Assembly (NCBI RefSeq): GCF_004791025.1
Contig: NZ_SRUO01000011.1
Span: forward strand, 62,001-126,000
Direction: 5' to 3'
DNA: 64,000 bases
Source of the DNA: Mesorhizobium sp. M4B.F.Ca.ET.203.01.1.1
GTDB lineage: Bacteria; Pseudomonadota; Alphaproteobacteria; Rhizobiales; Rhizobiaceae
Shown here: in pieces, positions 1 to 8,922 of the stretch
Layout: the number at the start of each line of letters is the position of its first letter
Numbering within the stretch: position 1 is the stretch's first letter
Notes under the pieces: model-generated
What the model saw: only the letters and a program-made list of their open reading frames with translations
The model's database searches: none
What the model was told of the DNA's origin: nothing
Made by a program: the position numbers and the translations under genes

Positions 1-2781
1 GGCTGCCGGAGCACTATCCGCAGGCTGCTCGGCGACGGCTTCCGCGGCGAGCGGGGCCTCGTCAGTGGCCTCTTCCGAGACCGGCTCGGCAACCATCTCG
101 GTGACGGGTTCGGCCGAAACCTCAACCGGGGCATCCGACGCCACAGCGGCATCCGGGCCAGGTTCGGAACCCTCGGCCGGTGTTTCGACGCCGGCTTCGG
201 CAGACGCCGCTTCGGCCGCGGCGGCCAGCTCGGCCTTTGCCGCTTCCTCGGCCGCAAGCTTGGCGGCGGCGGCCTCGCGCGCGGCATTGTCCTGCGCGTC
301 GAGCCGCGCCTTGACCTCGGCGGCCGGCTTCGGCTCGGCGCGGTAGCCGAGGCCTTTGAGGATCTCTTCCATATCGTCGGCCGTGGCGCCGAGGATCGAC
401 ATCATCGGCGGCGTCACCATGAAGGCGTGGCCGTCATAGGCGCCGTCGGGACGCTGGCCGAGGCCGGGCTTCCAGTTGGTGGCGGGACGGATCAGGTCGG
501 CCAGCCGCTCAAGAATATCGACGCGCACGGCGCGGCGGCCGAGATTGCGATAGCCGGCGAGCTTGTAGAAGCTCTTGTCGAAGGCGGGATCGATGACCAC
601 CGAGGTGCGGCCCGACGCCAGCGCATGAACCACGTCGCCAAAGCCGGGCTTGTCCTTGCCGTCGTTCTTCAGCGCCCACAGCAGCGTCACCAGCCCGGCG
701 GGCGCCGGCTTGATCAGTGCCGGCACGAAGACGTGATAGGCGCCGAAGCGCACGCCCAGCCGGCGCAGCGCGGCGCGGCCCTCCTGGTCGAGCGACTTCA
801 TCTCCTCGGCGATGTCGCGGCGGTTGATGAGGCCGAAATGCTCGACGAGCTGGAAGGCGATGCCGCGGCCGATGCCGGTGAGCTGCTCGGCATTCTTGAG
901 GTCGACCAGGGGCTTCAGCAGCGACTCGATCTGGAAATTGACGAAGCGCTCGGCGCGCGCCGCCACCTTGTCGCGAGCCGGACCGGTGAGCTGCTCGTCG
1001 GCCAGCAGCACGAGGCGCGGCTTCAGCGGCTCGTCGCTGGCAACCAGCGTTCCGATCGGCGCGCCGATCCAGCGCAGCGTGCCGTCCGAGCCAAGCGCGA
1101 GATCGCCATTGGCGCAGGCGCCGAAGCGCTCGGCGCGTGTCTCGAACTCCGCGGCAAGCGCCTTCTGGGCGGCCGTGCGCACGGCCTTGGCATCCTCGCC
1201 ACCGGCGCTCTGGTCGGCGGTGAAGCGGAACCCCTGCAACTCGCCGACATGATGGCCTTCGACGAGGACGGTTCCGGTTGGGCTGATTTCGGCTTCAGGC
1301 ATGGTATTTTCTCTAAGGCGCCGCATGAGGACGGAAGTCCTGCGGTCTACGAAGCGTTTCGTCAACCGCTCATGCAGCGCATCCGACAATCTGTCTTCGA
1401 TTTCGCGCGTCTTTTCCTGCCAGTGTGCCTGATCGGCCAGCCAGCCGGGGCGGTTGGCGACGAAAGTCCATGTGCGGATCTGGGCAATGCGGTGCGACAG
1501 CGTGTCGATGTCGCCGTCGGTCGTGTCGGCGCGGCGCACCTGCTCGGCCATGTAGTTCTCGTCGACATGGCCATGTCGGGCGAGGTCCATGTAGATCGAA
1601 GCGATCAAGTCTGCATGCTGGGCCGGCGCGATCTTGCGGTAGTCGGGCAGGGCGCAGGCCTCCCAGAGCAGCGCGACGCGCTTGGCGTCGGTGGCGAGCG
1701 CGCGGATAGCCTCGTCGCGCGACAGATGCTCCAGCGCCTGCGCGTCCACCGCCGGCAGGGCGCGCGTCAGGCCTTCGACCGGGGCGTTGGTCTCGATCGA
1801 GCGCTTCAGCGCGTCGAGGCTGGCGAAGTCGAAATCGGCAGTGCGCCATTGCATGACCTTCACCGGATCGAAATCATGGCTCTCGATCTTCTTGATCAGC
1901 TCCTCGTCCAGCGGATCGACCTGTCCGGTGACGCCGAACGTGCCGTCGCGCAAATGCCGGCCGGCGCGGCCGGCGATCTGGCCGAGCTCGGCGGCGGTCA
2001 GGTTGCGGTACTGGTAGCCGTCGAACTTGCGGTTCTGGGCGAAGGCGACATGGTCGAGGTCGAGGTTCAATCCCATGCCGATGGCGTCGGTGGCGACGAG
2101 ATAGTCGACATCGCCGGCCTGGAACAGCGCGACCTGGGCGTTGCGGGTGCGCGGCGACAGCGCGCCGAGCACGACGGCCGCGCCGCCCTGCTGGCGGCGG
2201 ATCAGCTCGGCAATGGCATAGACCTCGTCGGCGGAGAAGGCGACGATCGCCGTGCGCCTGGGCAGGCGGGTGAGCTTCTTCGAACCGGCATAGGCAAGGT
2301 GCGACAGCCTGGGCCGCGTCACCACCGAGACGCCCTTGAGGAGGCGCTGCAGGATGCCGTGCATGGTGGCCGCGCCGAGCAGCAGCGTCTCCTGGCGGCC
2401 ACGCAGATGCAGGATGCGGTCGGTGAAGATGTGGCCGCGCTCGAGATCGCCGGCAAGCTGCACCTCGTCGATGGCGACGAAGGCGGCATCGGTCTCGCGC
2501 GGCATCGCTTCCACCGTGCAGACCGAATATCTGGCGCCTGGCGGCTGGATCTTCTCCTCGCCGGTGATCAGCGCCACCTTGTGGGCGCCGACCTTCTCGC
2601 AGACGCGCGTATAGACCTCGCGTGCCAGAAGCCTGAGCGGCAGGCCGATGACGCCGCTCTCATGCGCCACCATGCGCTCGATGGCGAGGTGGGTCTTGCC
2701 GGTGTTGGTGGGCCCAAGCACAGCCGTCACGTCACGGCCGGAAAGGATCAACGGCTGAGGATGTTTCGGCTGGACGTTCAT
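1..2781 (-). CDS. Suv3-like ATP-dependent RNA helicase (3' end outside window)
   Basis: Superfamily 2 helicase of the mitochondrial/alphaproteobacterial Suv3 group, expected to unwind RNA in the cytoplasm. The product begins MNVQPKHPQPLILSGRDV. Walker A is the Suv3-type GPTNTGKTH at about residue 22, motif II is DEVQ near residue 92, and the helicase C motif QIAGRAGR is near residue 285. After about residue 800 the chain becomes an Ala/Glu-rich low-complexity tail (KLAAEEAAKAELAAAAEAAS) that runs off the window, so the C-terminus is missing. The ATG at 2781 was chosen because the conserved N-terminus starts there. The reading frame is open to base 1 (927 codons). The very long opposite-strand ORF over this gene is a GC-rich shadow. 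Its promoter should lie in the unusual gap at 2782-3447. Confidence 0.9.
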   Translation of the reverse strand, partial: MNVQPKHPQPLILSGRDVTAVLGPTNTGKTHLAIERMVAHESGVIGLPLRLLAREVYTRVCEKVGAHKVALITGEEKIQPPGARYSVCTVEAMPRETDAAFVAIDEVQLAGDLERGHIFTDRILHLRGRQETLLLGAATMHGILQRLLKGVSVVTRPRLSHLAYAGSKKLTRLPRRTAIVAFSADEVYAIAELIRRQQGGAAVVLGALSPRTRNAQVALFQAGDVDYLVATDAIGMGLNLDLDHVAFAQNRKFDGYQYRNLTAAELGQIAGRAGRHLRDGTFGVTGQVDPLDEELIKKIESHDFDPVKVMQWRTADFDFASLDALKRSIETNAPVEGLTRALPAVDAQALEHLSRDEAIRALATDAKRVALLWEACALPDYRKIAPAQHADLIASIYMDLARHGHVDENYMAEQVRRADTTDGDIDTLSHRIAQIRTWTFVANRPGWLADQAHWQEKTREIEDRLSDALHERLTKRFVDRRTSVLMRRLRENTMPEAEISPTGTVLVEGHHVGELQGFRFTADQSAGGEDAKAVRTAAQKALAAEFETRAERFGACANGDLALGSDGTLRWIGAPIGTLVASDEPLKPRLVLLADEQLTGPARDKVAARAERFVNFQIESLLKPLVDLKNAEQLTGIGRGIAFQLVEHFGLINRRDIAEEMKSLDQEGRAALRRLGVRFGAYHVFVPALIKPAPAGLVTLLWALKNDGKDKPGFGDVVHALASGRTSVVIDPAFDKSFYKLAGYRNLGRRAVRVDILERLADLIRPATNWKPGLGQRPDGAYDGHAFMVTPPMMSILGATADDMEEILKGLGYRAEPKPAAEVKARLDAQDNAAREAAAAKLAAEEAAKAELAAAAEAASAEAGVETPAEGSEPGPDAAVASDAPVEVSAEPVTEMVAEPVSEEATDEAPLAAEAVAEQPADSAPAA

Positions 2782-2959
2782 CGGCCCGGAAATAGACTCT
2801 CTGCCGCTCGTTGTCGGGAGCACGCCAGCGATGGCGCGTGTGACAGGCGACACATAAGGACTTCATGCGCGAAGCGAAAGCGGAATGTTCCGCGGTCAGT
2901 CTCCCTGACTCCATATGAGGGTCCGAAATGCGGTCTCGGTTAATGGTTGGAACGAGTCT

Positions 2960-2981
2960 GGAACGAATCGGCGACGAATCA
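2960..2981 (+). repeat. 22-bp direct repeat, copy 1
   Basis: Perfect 22-bp match to 3244-3265, in the same orientation. Each copy carries two GANTC sites spaced 11 bp apart (GAATC at 2965 and 2976 here), so the spacing is about one helical turn. Confidence 0.85.
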
Positions 2982-3243
2982 CTGACTCGCCGAGATTCAG
3001 GTTTTGTTCACGGCTACATGTGGGTTTTTCGACGGCGAGTCTCACCACATGCTGAATCTCTTGATTGGCCCGATTCATGCAGGGCGAACGCGAGTCGCGC
3101 GGCGCCGTTAACCTTTGCCGATCGGCGACGGACCCTGATCTTCCGGCCTTGCCCAAGATTATGAAATTCTTGACTTTTCCTAACGCGCGTTAACCTTTTG
3201 GGGCGGATTTTCGGTCCTCGGCGTTAACGTTCCGGCCAAAGCC

Positions 3244-3265
3244 GGAACGAATCGGCGACGAATCA
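3244..3265 (+). repeat. 22-bp direct repeat, copy 2
   Basis: Perfect 22-bp match to 2960-2981, 284 bp away, again with two GAATC sites 11 bp apart (3249 and 3260). Confidence 0.85.
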
Positions 3266-3447
3266 GCGATGACGGTGTTTTCCCGGTTTGTTCACCCCAA
3301 CATGTTGTGTCGTGGCAAAGTTTTCCACCGAGAATCCACAGGGTTGCGAACAGCTTTTGCACAGGCTCCGTGACGGCCGTTAACTTTTGCGTGCCGGATC
3401 GGGGCAGGGCGTCGCGCGGGAGACGCCGCGGGGGCGGCAACGGCAAC

Positions 3448-3475
3448 AAAAAACGGGCCGGTCTCCCGGCCGTTT
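3448..3475 (-). terminator. Rho-independent terminator of phaB
   Basis: Read on the minus strand, a GC-rich hairpin (GGCCGG / CCGGCC stem with a 4-nt loop, extended by AAAC/GTTT around one bulge) is followed by a run of six T. It lies about 65 bp after the phaB stop codon, as expected for the end of the phaA-phaB unit. Confidence 0.75.
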
Positions 3476-3539
3476 GTCAGATCGCTGTCTCGGAATTTCG
3501 GACCCGAACGCGTCGCGTCTTCAGGCGAATTGGCGGGCC

Positions 3540-4265
3540 TCAGGCGAAATACTGGCCGCCATTGGCACTGATGGTCGAACCGGTGATGAAGCCGGCTTCG
3601 TCGGAGGCGAGGAAGACGACGCAGCGCGCGACCTCTTCCGGCTCACCGAGCCGGCCGACGGGGATCTGCGGGATGATGCGCTCGTTGAGCACCTTCTCGT
3701 CGATCGCCTTGACCATCTCGGTGGCGATGTAGCCGGGGCAGATGACGTTGACGGTGATGCCGGCGCGGGCGCCCTCCTGGGCCAGCGCCTTCGAGAAGCC
3801 GATATCGCCGGCCTTGGCGGCGGAATAGTTGACCTGGCCGGCCTGGCCCTTCTGGCCGTTGATCGAGGAGATGGTGATGACGCGGCCGAACTTGCGGTCA
3901 CGCATGCCGCCCCACAGCGGATGCGTCATGTTGAAGACGCCGGACAGATTGGTGTCGATGACCTCTTTCCACTGCTCGCGCGTCAGCTTGTGGAACATGG
4001 CGTCGCGGGTGATGCCGGCATTGTTGACGAGCACCGAAACCGGGCCGAGATCGGCCTCGACCTGCTTGATGCCGGCAGCGCAGGCGTCATAGTCGGCAAC
4101 CGACCATTTGTAGACCGGGATGCCCGTCTCGGCCTTGAACTTCGCGGCCGCCTCGTCATTGCCGGCATAGTTGGCCGCAACCGAATAGCCGGCCTTTTTC
4201 AGAGCGATCGATATTGCCGCGCCGATGCCGCGCGATCCGCCCGTGACGATTGCTACCTTGCTCAT
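3540..4265 (-). CDS. phaB: acetoacetyl-CoA reductase PhaB
   Basis: NADPH-dependent short-chain dehydrogenase (241 aa) that reduces acetoacetyl-CoA to (R)-3-hydroxybutyryl-CoA, the second step of polyhydroxybutyrate synthesis. The N-terminus has the cofactor motif TGGSRGIG (about residues 8-15). The NNAG motif follows, and the catalytic Ser-Tyr-Lys set is in ITISSINGQKG and NYSAAKAG (about residues 135-155). The protein ends with the typical SDR tail TGSTISANGGQYFA. The ATG at 4265 has a strong ribosome site (GGGAGG) just upstream. It follows phaA by 118 bp on the same strand, and a hairpin terminator lies after it. The 118-bp spacer contains loose GAATAG/ATTCGCT short repeats. Confidence 0.95.
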   Translation of the reverse strand: MSKVAIVTGGSRGIGAAISIALKKAGYSVAANYAGNDEAAAKFKAETGIPVYKWSVADYDACAAGIKQVEADLGPVSVLVNNAGITRDAMFHKLTREQWKEVIDTNLSGVFNMTHPLWGGMRDRKFGRVITISSINGQKGQAGQVNYSAAKAGDIGFSKALAQEGARAGITVNVICPGYIATEMVKAIDEKVLNERIIPQIPVGRLGEPEEVARCVVFLASDEAGFITGSTISANGGQYFA

Positions 4266-6581: not shown

Positions 6582-7736
6582 CTAAATCCCGACGGGCCCG
6601 TCGTAGCGGGCGCGCGGCCGGATCAGGCGGTTGCTCACGACCTGCTCGACGGCATGCGCGGCCGAGCCGACGCTGCGCCCGAGCGCGAACAGGCGGAACG
6701 GCGCGTCGGGCGGCAGGCGCAACTGGCGCGTCAGCGCGGCCAACGCGAAGTCGATGTTCGGGCGCGCCCCCGTCGCGCCGAGGACGGTCTCGCCGAGGCA
6801 TAGCATACAGCCATCGATCTCGACATCGGCCAACAACGCCTCCGCCCTTGGGTCGCCCTCCGGATAGAGTGGATGGCCAAAGCCGGGCAGCGGCCGGTCG
6901 TGGCCAAGCCAGCGCTCGACCGCCGCATCGGCTCCCAGCCTTTCGGCGTCCTCGACCAGATTGAGCAAGGCCTCGCCGGCGCCGCCATGGCGCGGTCCGG
7001 ACAGGGTGGCAAGACCGGCAAGCAGGCAAGCGGCAACTGACGCGCCGGTGGACGCGGCGACCCGCGTGGCGAAGGTCGAGGCGTTCAACTCGTGATCGGC
7101 GAGCAGCACCAATGCCCTGCGTATCAGATTGGCGCCGGCAGCGCCGACCGACCAGCTGCGCGCCAATCTCTCATGCACGGCGCCGTTTCCCGCAGCCGCG
7201 CCGAGCGCCTCTGCCAGGGCCGCGATGGCGTCGGCGGCATCGCGGTAGAGCATGGCTGGCCCGCGTCCCAGCGAAGGCCGGCCTTCGGCAGCCAGTCCAG
7301 CCAGCGTCGCGAATGCCGCGCCGCGACCGCTGTCGCGCGCGTCACCGCGGCCGGGCGAGGCAAACGACACCGGGACGTCCGCTGCCCAGAGCAGGCTTGC
7401 CGTCTCCTCCAGCGTCGCCGCGCTGGAGAGCGTCACAGCATCCTTTCCGCGATAGAAAAGGCCGCCATGCTGGATGGTCGAGATCGAGGTGGCAAAAGCC
7501 GGCTCGCCCCAGTCGATGGCGCTTTCTGCGATCGCTCGCGGGCTTCGGCCGCGCGCGCGGCGCGTGGCGAGGGCGGCGATGTCGTCGGCGCGATACTGGC
7601 TGCGGCGCGGATCGGCTGCGTCCGGACGCATGCCGATACGGCCACGGCTGACATAGGCATAGAGCGTCTGCGGCCGCACCTTGAGTCGTTCCAGCGCCTC
7701 CTCACGCGTCAGCCATTCGGACATGTTGTTTGTCAT
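6582..7736 (-). CDS. citrate synthase-family protein with N-terminal helix-turn-helix
   Basis: A fusion of about 384 aa. Residues 1-75 look like an excisionase/MerR-type winged helix (LTREEALERLKVRPQTLYAYVSRGRIG, then a wing with RRSQYRADDIAAL). The remainder is a citrate synthase fold. Catalytic positions are kept: His in GPRHGGAGEAL, His in GFGHPLYPEGDPR and Asp in NIDFALAAL, plus the C-terminal RLIRPRARYDGP. The start was taken as the ATG at 7736; a second ATG at 7724 is possible, and the track-style longer frame starts without support. It is divergent from a second citrate synthase-like gene, so it may both catalyse and regulate. Whether it makes citrate or methylcitrate, or only senses acyl-CoA, cannot be told from sequence. 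Confidence 0.8.
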   Translation of the reverse strand: MTNNMSEWLTREEALERLKVRPQTLYAYVSRGRIGMRPDAADPRRSQYRADDIAALATRRARGRSPRAIAESAIDWGEPAFATSISTIQHGGLFYRGKDAVTLSSAATLEETASLLWAADVPVSFASPGRGDARDSGRGAAFATLAGLAAEGRPSLGRGPAMLYRDAADAIAALAEALGAAAGNGAVHERLARSWSVGAAGANLIRRALVLLADHELNASTFATRVAASTGASVAACLLAGLATLSGPRHGGAGEALLNLVEDAERLGADAAVERWLGHDRPLPGFGHPLYPEGDPRAEALLADVEIDGCMLCLGETVLGATGARPNIDFALAALTRQLRLPPDAPFRLFALGRSVGSAAHAVEQVVSNRLIRPRARYDGPVGI

Positions 7737-7833
7737 GCAGCCGATTGCTTGGACATATTGATTCACTTGATCAAGATTGATGCCTCGAACTTGCACCATT
7801 AATTCAGCTCCGTAAATGGCGAAGGAGACGAAC
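7737..7833. promoter_or_regulatory. divergent promoter of the citrate synthase-like pair
   Basis: A 97-bp AT-richer gap between two divergent starts. It contains the palindrome TTGATCAA (in ACTTGATCAAGAT) and flanking TTGATTC and TTGATGC words, a plausible operator for the HTH domain of the leftward gene. GGAGACGAAC before 7834 is a good ribosome site for the rightward gene. Confidence 0.45.
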
Positions 7834-8922
7834 ATGGCAAACGGGCTCGATGATGTGGTGGCGGCGGAAACCGTGCTTTCCGATGTCGACGGCCTCGGCG
7901 GCCGGCTGACGATCCGTGGCCATTCGCTGCCGGAACTCGCCGGCCGCTGGCGCTATCCGCAAGTGGCGCGCCTGTTGCTCGACGGCTTCTTCGACGACCT
8001 TCCCGGCGATGCTGAACTGGCCGAGGCGATCGGCCGGGCGCGGGTCGAGGTGTTCCAGCGGCTGCAGCCGACTCTTTCCACACTGGCCGCGCTCGATGTC
8101 TACAGCGGCATGCGCGCCGGCATCGCCTTGCTGCCGGATGGCGGGACGCTGGCGGATGCGCTCCGGCTGATCGCCGCGCCAGCGGTACTGACACCGGCCT
8201 TGCTGCGGGCAAAACGCGGCGACAAAGCGGTCGCCCCCGACAAGGGTGCCGATCATGCCGCCGACATGCTGCGGATGCTGAGCGGCAAGGCGGATTCACC
8301 CGACCTGGCCAGGGCGCTCGACACCTATCTGGTCACCGTCTGCGACCATGGCCTCAACGCCTCGACTTTTGCCACCCGTGTCGTCGCCTCGACCCAGGCC
8401 GGGCTGACCTCGGCGATCCTGGCCGGGCTCGGCGCGCTCAAGGGGCCGCTGCATGGCGGCGCGCCCGGACCGGTCATCGAAATGCTGGACGCGATCGAGG
8501 CGAGCGGCGACGCAGCAGGCTGGCTGCGCGACGAGATCGTGCATGGCGAGCGCATCATGGGCTTTGGCCACCGTATCTACCGGGTGCGCGATCCGCGCGC
8601 CGACGTGCTGAAGGCGGTGGTGCGGCAGCTGGGCGGCAAGGGTGGAACCGGCCGCCGGCTGGCCTTCGCCGAAGAGGTCGAGCAGGCAGCGCTCGAGGTG
8701 CTGCGGGTCGCCAAGCCGCAGCGCTCGATCCAGACCAATGTCGAATTCTACACCGCGCTCCTGCTGGAAGCGGCGGGCTTTCCCGCGGAGGCGTTCTCCA
8801 ATGTCTTCGCCGCGGGCCGCATCGCCGGCTGGATCGCCCATGCGCGCGAGCAGCAGACGACCGGGCGGCTGATCCGGCCGCAGTCGCGCTATGTCGGGCC
8901 GGTGCCGGATCTCGTCGCCTGA
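7834..8922 (+). CDS. citrate synthase-like protein with Asp-to-Glu change at the catalytic site
   Basis: Citrate synthase fold without a DNA-binding domain, 362 aa. Family landmarks are HGLNASTFATRV, GPLHGGAPGPV (first catalytic His), GFGHRIYRVRDPRADV (second His) and RLIRPQSRYVGP at the end. The position that is normally Asp in NVDFYSG is Glu here (TNVEFYTALLL), which may alter activity or reflect a subfamily. ATG 7834 was chosen over an earlier ATG at 7816 because GGAG lies 8-11 bases before it. It is divergent from the HTH-fused paralogue, and a tandem of hairpins follows. Substrate could be oxaloacetate with acetyl- or propionyl-CoA, or something else. Confidence 0.8.
   Translation: MANGLDDVVAAETVLSDVDGLGGRLTIRGHSLPELAGRWRYPQVARLLLDGFFDDLPGDAELAEAIGRARVEVFQRLQPTLSTLAALDVYSGMRAGIALLPDGGTLADALRLIAAPAVLTPALLRAKRGDKAVAPDKGADHAADMLRMLSGKADSPDLARALDTYLVTVCDHGLNASTFATRVVASTQAGLTSAILAGLGALKGPLHGGAPGPVIEMLDAIEASGDAAGWLRDEIVHGERIMGFGHRIYRVRDPRADVLKAVVRQLGGKGGTGRRLAFAEEVEQAALEVLRVAKPQRSIQTNVEFYTALLLEAAGFPAEAFSNVFAAGRIAGWIAHAREQQTTGRLIRPQSRYVGPVPDLVA

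Follow-up and report, generated by a model that had tools for sequence, protein, structure and literature searches.

A conserved GANTC-rich module upstream of a Suv3-like helicase gene in Mesorhizobium and other Alphaproteobacteria: a candidate composite control region

Sites of the datA and SeqA type in E. coli are replication control sites. The LexA site of this class is given as GAACN7GAAC (PMC3091678; PMC7987155), and LexA sites are described as readily overlapping GANTC (PMC7987155). NrdR is described as requiring two palindromic boxes about three helical turns apart (PMC12051234) and, in passages that give no motif, as widespread (PMC5343134). The Brucella GcrA protein is described as binding GANTC-rich peaks, with DNA-repair genes among them (PMC6813329). 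The region reported here is found upstream of a Suv3-like helicase gene in Mesorhizobium sp. M4B.F.Ca.ET.203.01.1.1 and can be compared with each of these systems. No description of the region was found in the literature searched.

The window is the whole stretch of DNA analyzed, 64,000 nucleotides (64 kb) that correspond to bases 62001-126000 of a 206-kb contig; the draft genome is 6.93 Mb. The genes and signals that border the region are as follows.

1-2781, minus strand: Suv3-like helicase gene, start codon at 2779-2781; it runs past the left end of the window and encodes 1120 aa in the contig
3456-3471, minus strand: terminator-like hairpin after phaB, at the upstream edge of the region
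3540-4265, minus strand: phaB, upstream of the helicase gene

The helicase is identified by Pfam PF22527 and Helicase_C and by PDB sequences of Suv3/SUPV3L1. As the helicase starts at 2781 and phaB with its hairpin lies beyond, positions 2782-3449 constitute the helicase upstream region. A thiolase gene is present on the far side of phaB and is phaA by position. Two terminator-like sites are found where shuffled sequences give an expectation of 1.4, and no consensus sigma-70 promoter is seen in 2600-3700. Further along the window, at 6582-8922, translations show two citrate-synthase-like reading frames in divergent orientation.

The upstream region displays a dense cluster of GANTC sites together with GTTAAC words and a direct repeat.

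2795, 2907, 2954, 2965, 2976, 2984, 2994, 3037, 3054, 3072, 3092, 3249, 3260, 3332: GANTC positions
2954-2998, unstranded: five GANTC sites, at 2954, 2965 and 2976 in 11-bp steps, then at 2984 and 2994
2960-2981 and 3244-3265, both plus strand: copies 1 and 2 of the 22-bp direct repeat GGAACGAATCGGCGACGAATCA, 284 bp apart
3107-3112, unstranded: GTTAAC, kept in 24 of 30 genus loci
3189-3194, unstranded: GTTAAC, present as the hexamer in 0 of 30 genus loci
3379-3384, unstranded: GTTAAC, kept in 21 of 30 genus loci

The original prediction counted thirteen GANTC from 2907 on, ten of them in 190 bp, four GTTAAC within 280 bp, and a 22-bp repeat with GAATC pairs 11 bp apart; a recount confirms all of these. 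Segment 2782-3447 holds 14 of the 84 GANTC sites of the whole 64-kb window, and the GTTAAC words at 3107, 3189, 3223 and 3379 (3107-3384) are the only four in the window. The stretch with all 14 GANTC and four GTTAAC is 2795-3384. The 22-bp repeat, with its GAATC pairs at 11-bp spacing, is part of a longer duplication of two blocks in register, 284 bp apart, which consist of GTTAA...GGAACGAATCGGCGACGAATCA and TTC..GGTTTGTTCAC...ACATGT. The claimed enrichment stands, but the expectations on which it was based, one GANTC per 256 bp and one GTTAAC per 4096 bp, are too mild: 1595 GANTC (about one per 700 bp) and 36 GTTAAC are found in a sample of 1,113,654 bases, 16% of the 6.93 Mb, which comprises C22, C142 and 400 kb from the start of each of C109 and C220. 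In the sliding-window ranking that had been proposed, the locus comes first in this 1.11 Mb of its own genome both for GANTC (10 per 200 bp, the next 5) and for GTTAAC (4 per 300 bp, the next 1). The corresponding locus of the relative G060 is first for GANTC (6 per 200 bp, the next 4) and not first for GTTAAC in 1.2 Mb sampled from the relatives G060 and G077. The cluster is not a product of chance and is stronger than first stated.

The element consists of modular non-coding DNA, one to four copies of a module of about 88 bp. Two copies are present in the window.

2938-3025, plus strand: module A (proximal), about 88 bp, model R1 E-value = 6.5e-22
3222-3309, plus strand: module B (distal), model R1 E-value = 4.8e-19, with the GTTAAC at 3223 at its start

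This GTTAAC is kept in 26 of 30 genus loci. The original prediction mentions neither the module and its association with the helicase in other orders nor the LexA-like box and the tandem palindromes 31 bp apart.

A DNA search of the genus returns the region for 145 of 146 genomes; among the matches listed, the most divergent genomes include several that align only at the module copies (78-91%). Matches in the family extend to 251 of 394 genomes and to 76 of 109 genera, own genus included. In all 24 loci taken from the family search (22 from other genera, two from the own genus), helicase and module are neighbours in a single orientation, and phaB was not found in three of these 24. A scan from the helicase side gave 584 candidates, of which the best 80 were used. 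Going by title, almost all of these 80 are Hyphomicrobiales, and 79 have at least 1.5 kb of upstream sequence. With an HMM built from 51 modules (nhmmer E-value up to 0.01, some matches being weak), a module is found upstream of the helicase in 65 of these 79 named loci. One copy is present in 28 of the 65, two in 31, three in 5 and four in 1, and the commonest module spacing is 273 bp.

No upstream module is seen in 14 of the 79 named helicase loci: six from Aureimonas, Jiella and Fulvimarina, one each from Pseudovibrio, Enterovirga, Methylobacterium and a Xanthobacter, and four from metagenome bins. The best match elsewhere in their genomes has an E-value of at least 0.017, or there is none, Xanthobacter sp. 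NM-59 excepted. In NM-59 the module is absent at the helicase and related sequences are found at several other places (L292:1290-1562, L305:1504-1562), with three related copies in a row after a gene that reads as xseB-like in translation. Bradyrhizobium sp. Arg816, one of three control genomes, carries a second module copy (E-value = 1.8e-8, L304:1501-1583) near glutathione-S-transferase-like and PHB-depolymerase-like genes, named from translations.

Run on the own genome, with 150 of 2116 first-look candidates scored, a sequence-only model built from 68 modules returns the two known copies and no other. In a class sample of 190 genomes it matches 22, own included, with strict filters by which weak matches are lost. 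Among the 21 other matching genomes, 17 (15 of them outside the order) have the module upstream of the same helicase, with the orientation unchanged. The remaining four are L240, where no helicase lies within 1.5 kb, and the weak hits L252, L253 and L254, which are also without it. The order-wide core reads GGAAC N6 GGAACGAAtCGnnnnCGAATCrCTGACTC, a gap, and TTyGTTCACnnCwAnATnTwG. Thus the module is conserved far beyond the genus and is linked to the helicase nearly everywhere it is convincingly found. To our knowledge, non-coding DNA this conserved across orders is unusual in bacteria, RNAs and origins aside.

Conservation of the single sites, which the original prediction had left to be checked, differs from site to site. 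In 30 aligned genus loci the GANTC at 2954, 2965, 2976, 2984, 2994, 3054 and 3260 are retained in 29-30; those at 3037, 3332, 3072 and 3249 are less conserved (23, 19, 18 and 15 loci, respectively). The sites at 3092 (2 loci) and at 2795 and 2907 (0 loci) are largely absent from relatives, as is the GTTAAC at 3189. The 30 loci carry 8-12 GANTC each, with a mean of 9.9, versus 14 in the window. Density is highest within the modules, with 33.7 GANTC per kb inside, 9.7 beside and 1.6 further out, the last value being lowered by coding sequence. At least five GANTC per 200 bp are displayed by 54 of the 65 loci with a module and by 0 of the 14 without; the mean maximum is 7.0 with a module and 1.0 without, and Markov sequences give 2.9. 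GANTC is therefore both enriched and conserved, as looked for in a CcrM/GcrA-regulated promoter. Since the cluster is non-random, largely kept in relatives and situated in the helicase upstream region, a methylation-timed promoter, one of the readings first offered, is possible.

The proximal module also carries a second type of motif.

2950-2964, plus strand: GAACN7GAAC, LexA-box-like

This box is kept in 62 of 65 proximal modules versus 5 of 44 distal ones; in the class sample, no more than 5 of 18 loci have it close to the module match. A conserved GAACN7GAAC upstream of orthologues is what a LexA regulon shows at the sequence level. Upstream of recA in the own genome there is no exact GAACN7GAAC, only GAACN7GTAC. 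The simplest rival explanation of the region starts from this box: the region would be SOS-controlled, GANTC would be a by-product of LexA half-sites and of another motif (CGAATCrCTgAC), and methylation would be irrelevant. The described overlap of LexA sites with GANTC (PMC7987155) would explain GANTC conservation without any effect of the sites; the internal GANTC is lost from the box in 28 of the 62 loci that keep it, and distant class members have few GANTC left beyond CGAATC. However, GANTC is dense between and beside the modules as well (9.7 versus 1.6 per kb), and Bradyrhizobium loci with a single module display 7-12 GANTC per 200 bp. On this balance, SOS control with incidental GANTC appears unlikely.

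A third type of motif consists of palindromes, two of which form a pair at the proximal module.

3014-3023, unstranded: palindrome CWANATNTWG (CTACATGTGG), NrdR-box-like, score 13/14, conserved in 32 lineage representatives
3045-3054, unstranded: second palindrome-like box (CCACATGCTG), 31 bp from the first
3298-3307, unstranded: palindrome CAACATGTTG of module B, score 14/14

Among the 65 loci, a second box with a score of at least 10 is found at 31 bp in 58%, at 32 bp in 18% and at 30 bp in 11%; other offsets give at most 5%. In the 32 representatives, hand-picked from the 65 loci with weak module matches excluded, the best score at 30-32 bp has a mean of 11.1/14 versus 5.5 (maximum 6.4) at control offsets, and both boxes are conserved while the spacer is almost without information. 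Distal copies show a weaker 31-bp peak (20% with a score of at least 10), and most of 9 additional loci whose module match is weak have no good boxes. The helicase pair's score of 24 is unequalled in the window at spacings of 30-33 bp. Three pairs at 31 bp, the helicase pair included, reach it in 1.11 Mb of the own genome, and five do so over spacings of 25-44 bp in 314 kb. Because the pair score is not special in one genome, the case for NrdR rests on conservation and not on a single score. One of the other two score-24 pairs at 31 bp is found within 115 bp upstream of gcrA (Pfam GcrA; L315:10881-10921, G000:C109:130881); its conservation is not informative, since the 160 upstream bases differ from G077 at one position only.

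A comparable palindrome pair is found upstream of nrdJ in the own genome (L256:849-890). In nrdJ upstreams of the family the best pair lies at 31-32 bp in 27 of 30 loci and consists of one near-perfect box and one cut down to the CACNAGAT half. The helicase pair is spaced like the nrdJ pair and is asymmetric in a similar way. Set against the full 16-bp nrdJ consensus, it matches in the core CWANATNTWG and one CAC half, and the outer letters of its first box differ. The nrdJ upstream also shows, at L256:584-650, TTATCCACA beside another CACAAGATATTGG palindrome and a ACGAATCCTTGAC word resembling the module core. Two palindromes about three turns apart, the spacing described for NrdR, are found in the Hyphomicrobiales and mostly not in other orders; since the second box is mostly missing there, the NrdR label is proposed for the Hyphomicrobiales only.

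This distribution bears on a further rival, in which the region is an array for one class-wide protein that would recognize CGAATCrCTkAC and GTTCACnnCwAnATnTwG, the likeness to LexA and NrdR sites being coincidental. These two blocks are what persists in other orders, most of whose loci lack GAACN7GAAC and the second box, and CGAA units at 11-bp steps would also fit an OmpR-type regulator. But a single protein leaves unexplained both the second box at 31-32 bp across an unconserved spacer and the GAACN7GAAC in 62 of 65 proximal, not distal, modules. We regard the one-protein array as distinctly unlikely.

Our preferred reading is a composite operator/promoter region that would tie the helicase to replication, damage and perhaps dNTP signals. 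We give it a probability of about one half; the pair scores in a single genome and the recA result lower it. Taken together, the data suggest that chromosome-replication signals control the helicase. In the composite region, LexA on GAACN7GAAC would repress the helicase until DNA damage, and the coupling to the ATP/dATP balance would come from an NrdR-type repressor on the paired palindromes. Lying a few hundred kb from the origin, the GANTC array would go from fully methylated to hemimethylated early in S phase, and this change would time access of GcrA and sigma-70. Synthesis of the helicase would thus coincide with active or troubled forks, where the enzyme might, for instance, remove RNA or RNA-DNA hybrids. 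We infer the binding of each of these predicted proteins from its motif; the conservation and the helicase linkage are observed. A bolder form, possible but rather unlikely, makes the module an ancient alphaproteobacterial integrator of replication status in which phased GANTC, LexA and NrdR would jointly set the Suv3-like helicase. The phased GANTC would be read by a novel methylation-sensing protein, and the helicase would be an enzyme associated with forks that removes RNA or RNA-DNA hybrids, not a general RNA-decay helicase.

The original prediction also offered an origin-like or plasmid-like relic. In the own contig the cumulative GC skew shows a local low near the locus and rises again further left, which is ambiguous. 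For the complete relative G060, the 400 kb that surround the locus and 20 additional samples were used, and the skew is negative to either side of the locus (2.689 Mb), with no sign change there; sampling of G077 is noisy. The cumulative curve of G060 flattens near hemE (2.895 Mb) and, within the contiguous stretch, bottoms out at 2.965 Mb. Skew is positive in the sample at 3.07 Mb, and the reverse switch falls between 1.14 and 1.33 Mb. Words that we take to be KOPS-like broadly agree with the G060 skew. The distance from hemE to the locus is 433-523 kb in 9 of 12 complete relatives; in G060, G067 and G077 it is 206, 829 and 992 kb, respectively. In G060 the main origin is thus ruled out at this locus, as the skew changes at hemE or past it, no less than 206 kb from here. 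Presence in 145 of 146 genus genomes argues against a plasmid relic. The second-densest GANTC group of the 1.11-Mb sample (5 per 200 bp, G000:C142:93298) lies about 6 kb from hemE, on the side where the G060 skew changes.

One word in the region resembles a DnaA box.

3355-3363, plus strand: DnaA-box-like word TTTTGCACA, kept in 17 of 30 genus loci and labelled by what we take to be the consensus, TTWTNCACA

A DnaA-titration or origin-like element comparable to datA, merely beside the helicase, would account for the TTWTCCACC, GAATCCACA and TTTTGCACA words after module B in the genus, with GANTC and GTTAAC nearby. It is very improbable, as only one consensus DnaA word is present in the window, kept in 17 of 30 loci, the G060 skew excludes the main origin, and the linkage is to one gene across orders. 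Just as improbable is a structured RNA leader or small RNA, the RNA gene of the original prediction: high conservation, leader position and the inverted repeat GAACGAA / TTYGTTC would suit it, but there is no Rfam match at the gathering threshold, a fold search covering the module gives no consensus pairs over 68 module sequences, and the inverted repeat shows no both-sided change and a covariation score within shuffles.

The GTTAAC words had been taken as CtrA-like. The full CtrA site, which we take to be TTAA-N7-TTAA, is not found with up to one mismatch anywhere in the window, so the words are half-sites at best. EcfG and RpoH promoters, judged by their consensus sequences only, do not fit. 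The S. meliloti origin is said to be without CtrA sites (PMC4433202). The CenR motif, given as TGA-N8-TGA (PMC9275681), does not fit the module, and passages of PMC9561847 contain nothing bearing on it.

A multi-input regulatory region is a known kind of element; the literature searched offers no account of the present combination or of how deeply it is conserved. If the composite reading is true, NrdR would act on a helicase as well as on the ribonucleotide reductase genes for which it is described as a repressor, and the replication and damage response would gain a bacterial relative of mitochondrial SUPV3L1. What bacterial Suv3-like helicases do in the cell would become testable, and the locus would provide a dense natural GANTC array for the discovery of proteins that sense CcrM methylation.

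Four known systems are closest. The datA/SeqA-type sites of E. coli are similar in being non-coding DNA with clustered methylation sites or DnaA words; unlike them, the present region carries GANTC and not GATC, its DnaA words are weak, and it is bound to one gene over orders. With the NrdR operators of ribonucleotide reductase genes the region shares two palindromic boxes at a distance of 31-32 bp, one of which has a CACNANAT half; nrdJ of this family shows the same. However, the strong box of the helicase is without the outer CA..TG and the pair is reversed relative to the gene; the helicase is not a reductase gene, and the second box is not class-wide. The LexA (SOS) operators of Alphaproteobacteria (GTTCN7GTTC/GAACN7GAAC) are matched by the exact box in proximal modules and by the overlap with GANTC, whereas the helicase box sits within a much longer conserved module and its target is a Suv3-like helicase. 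CcrM/GcrA-controlled promoters likewise show GANTC upstream of a gene and kept over species, but the helicase array is far denser and is partly phased at 11 bp.
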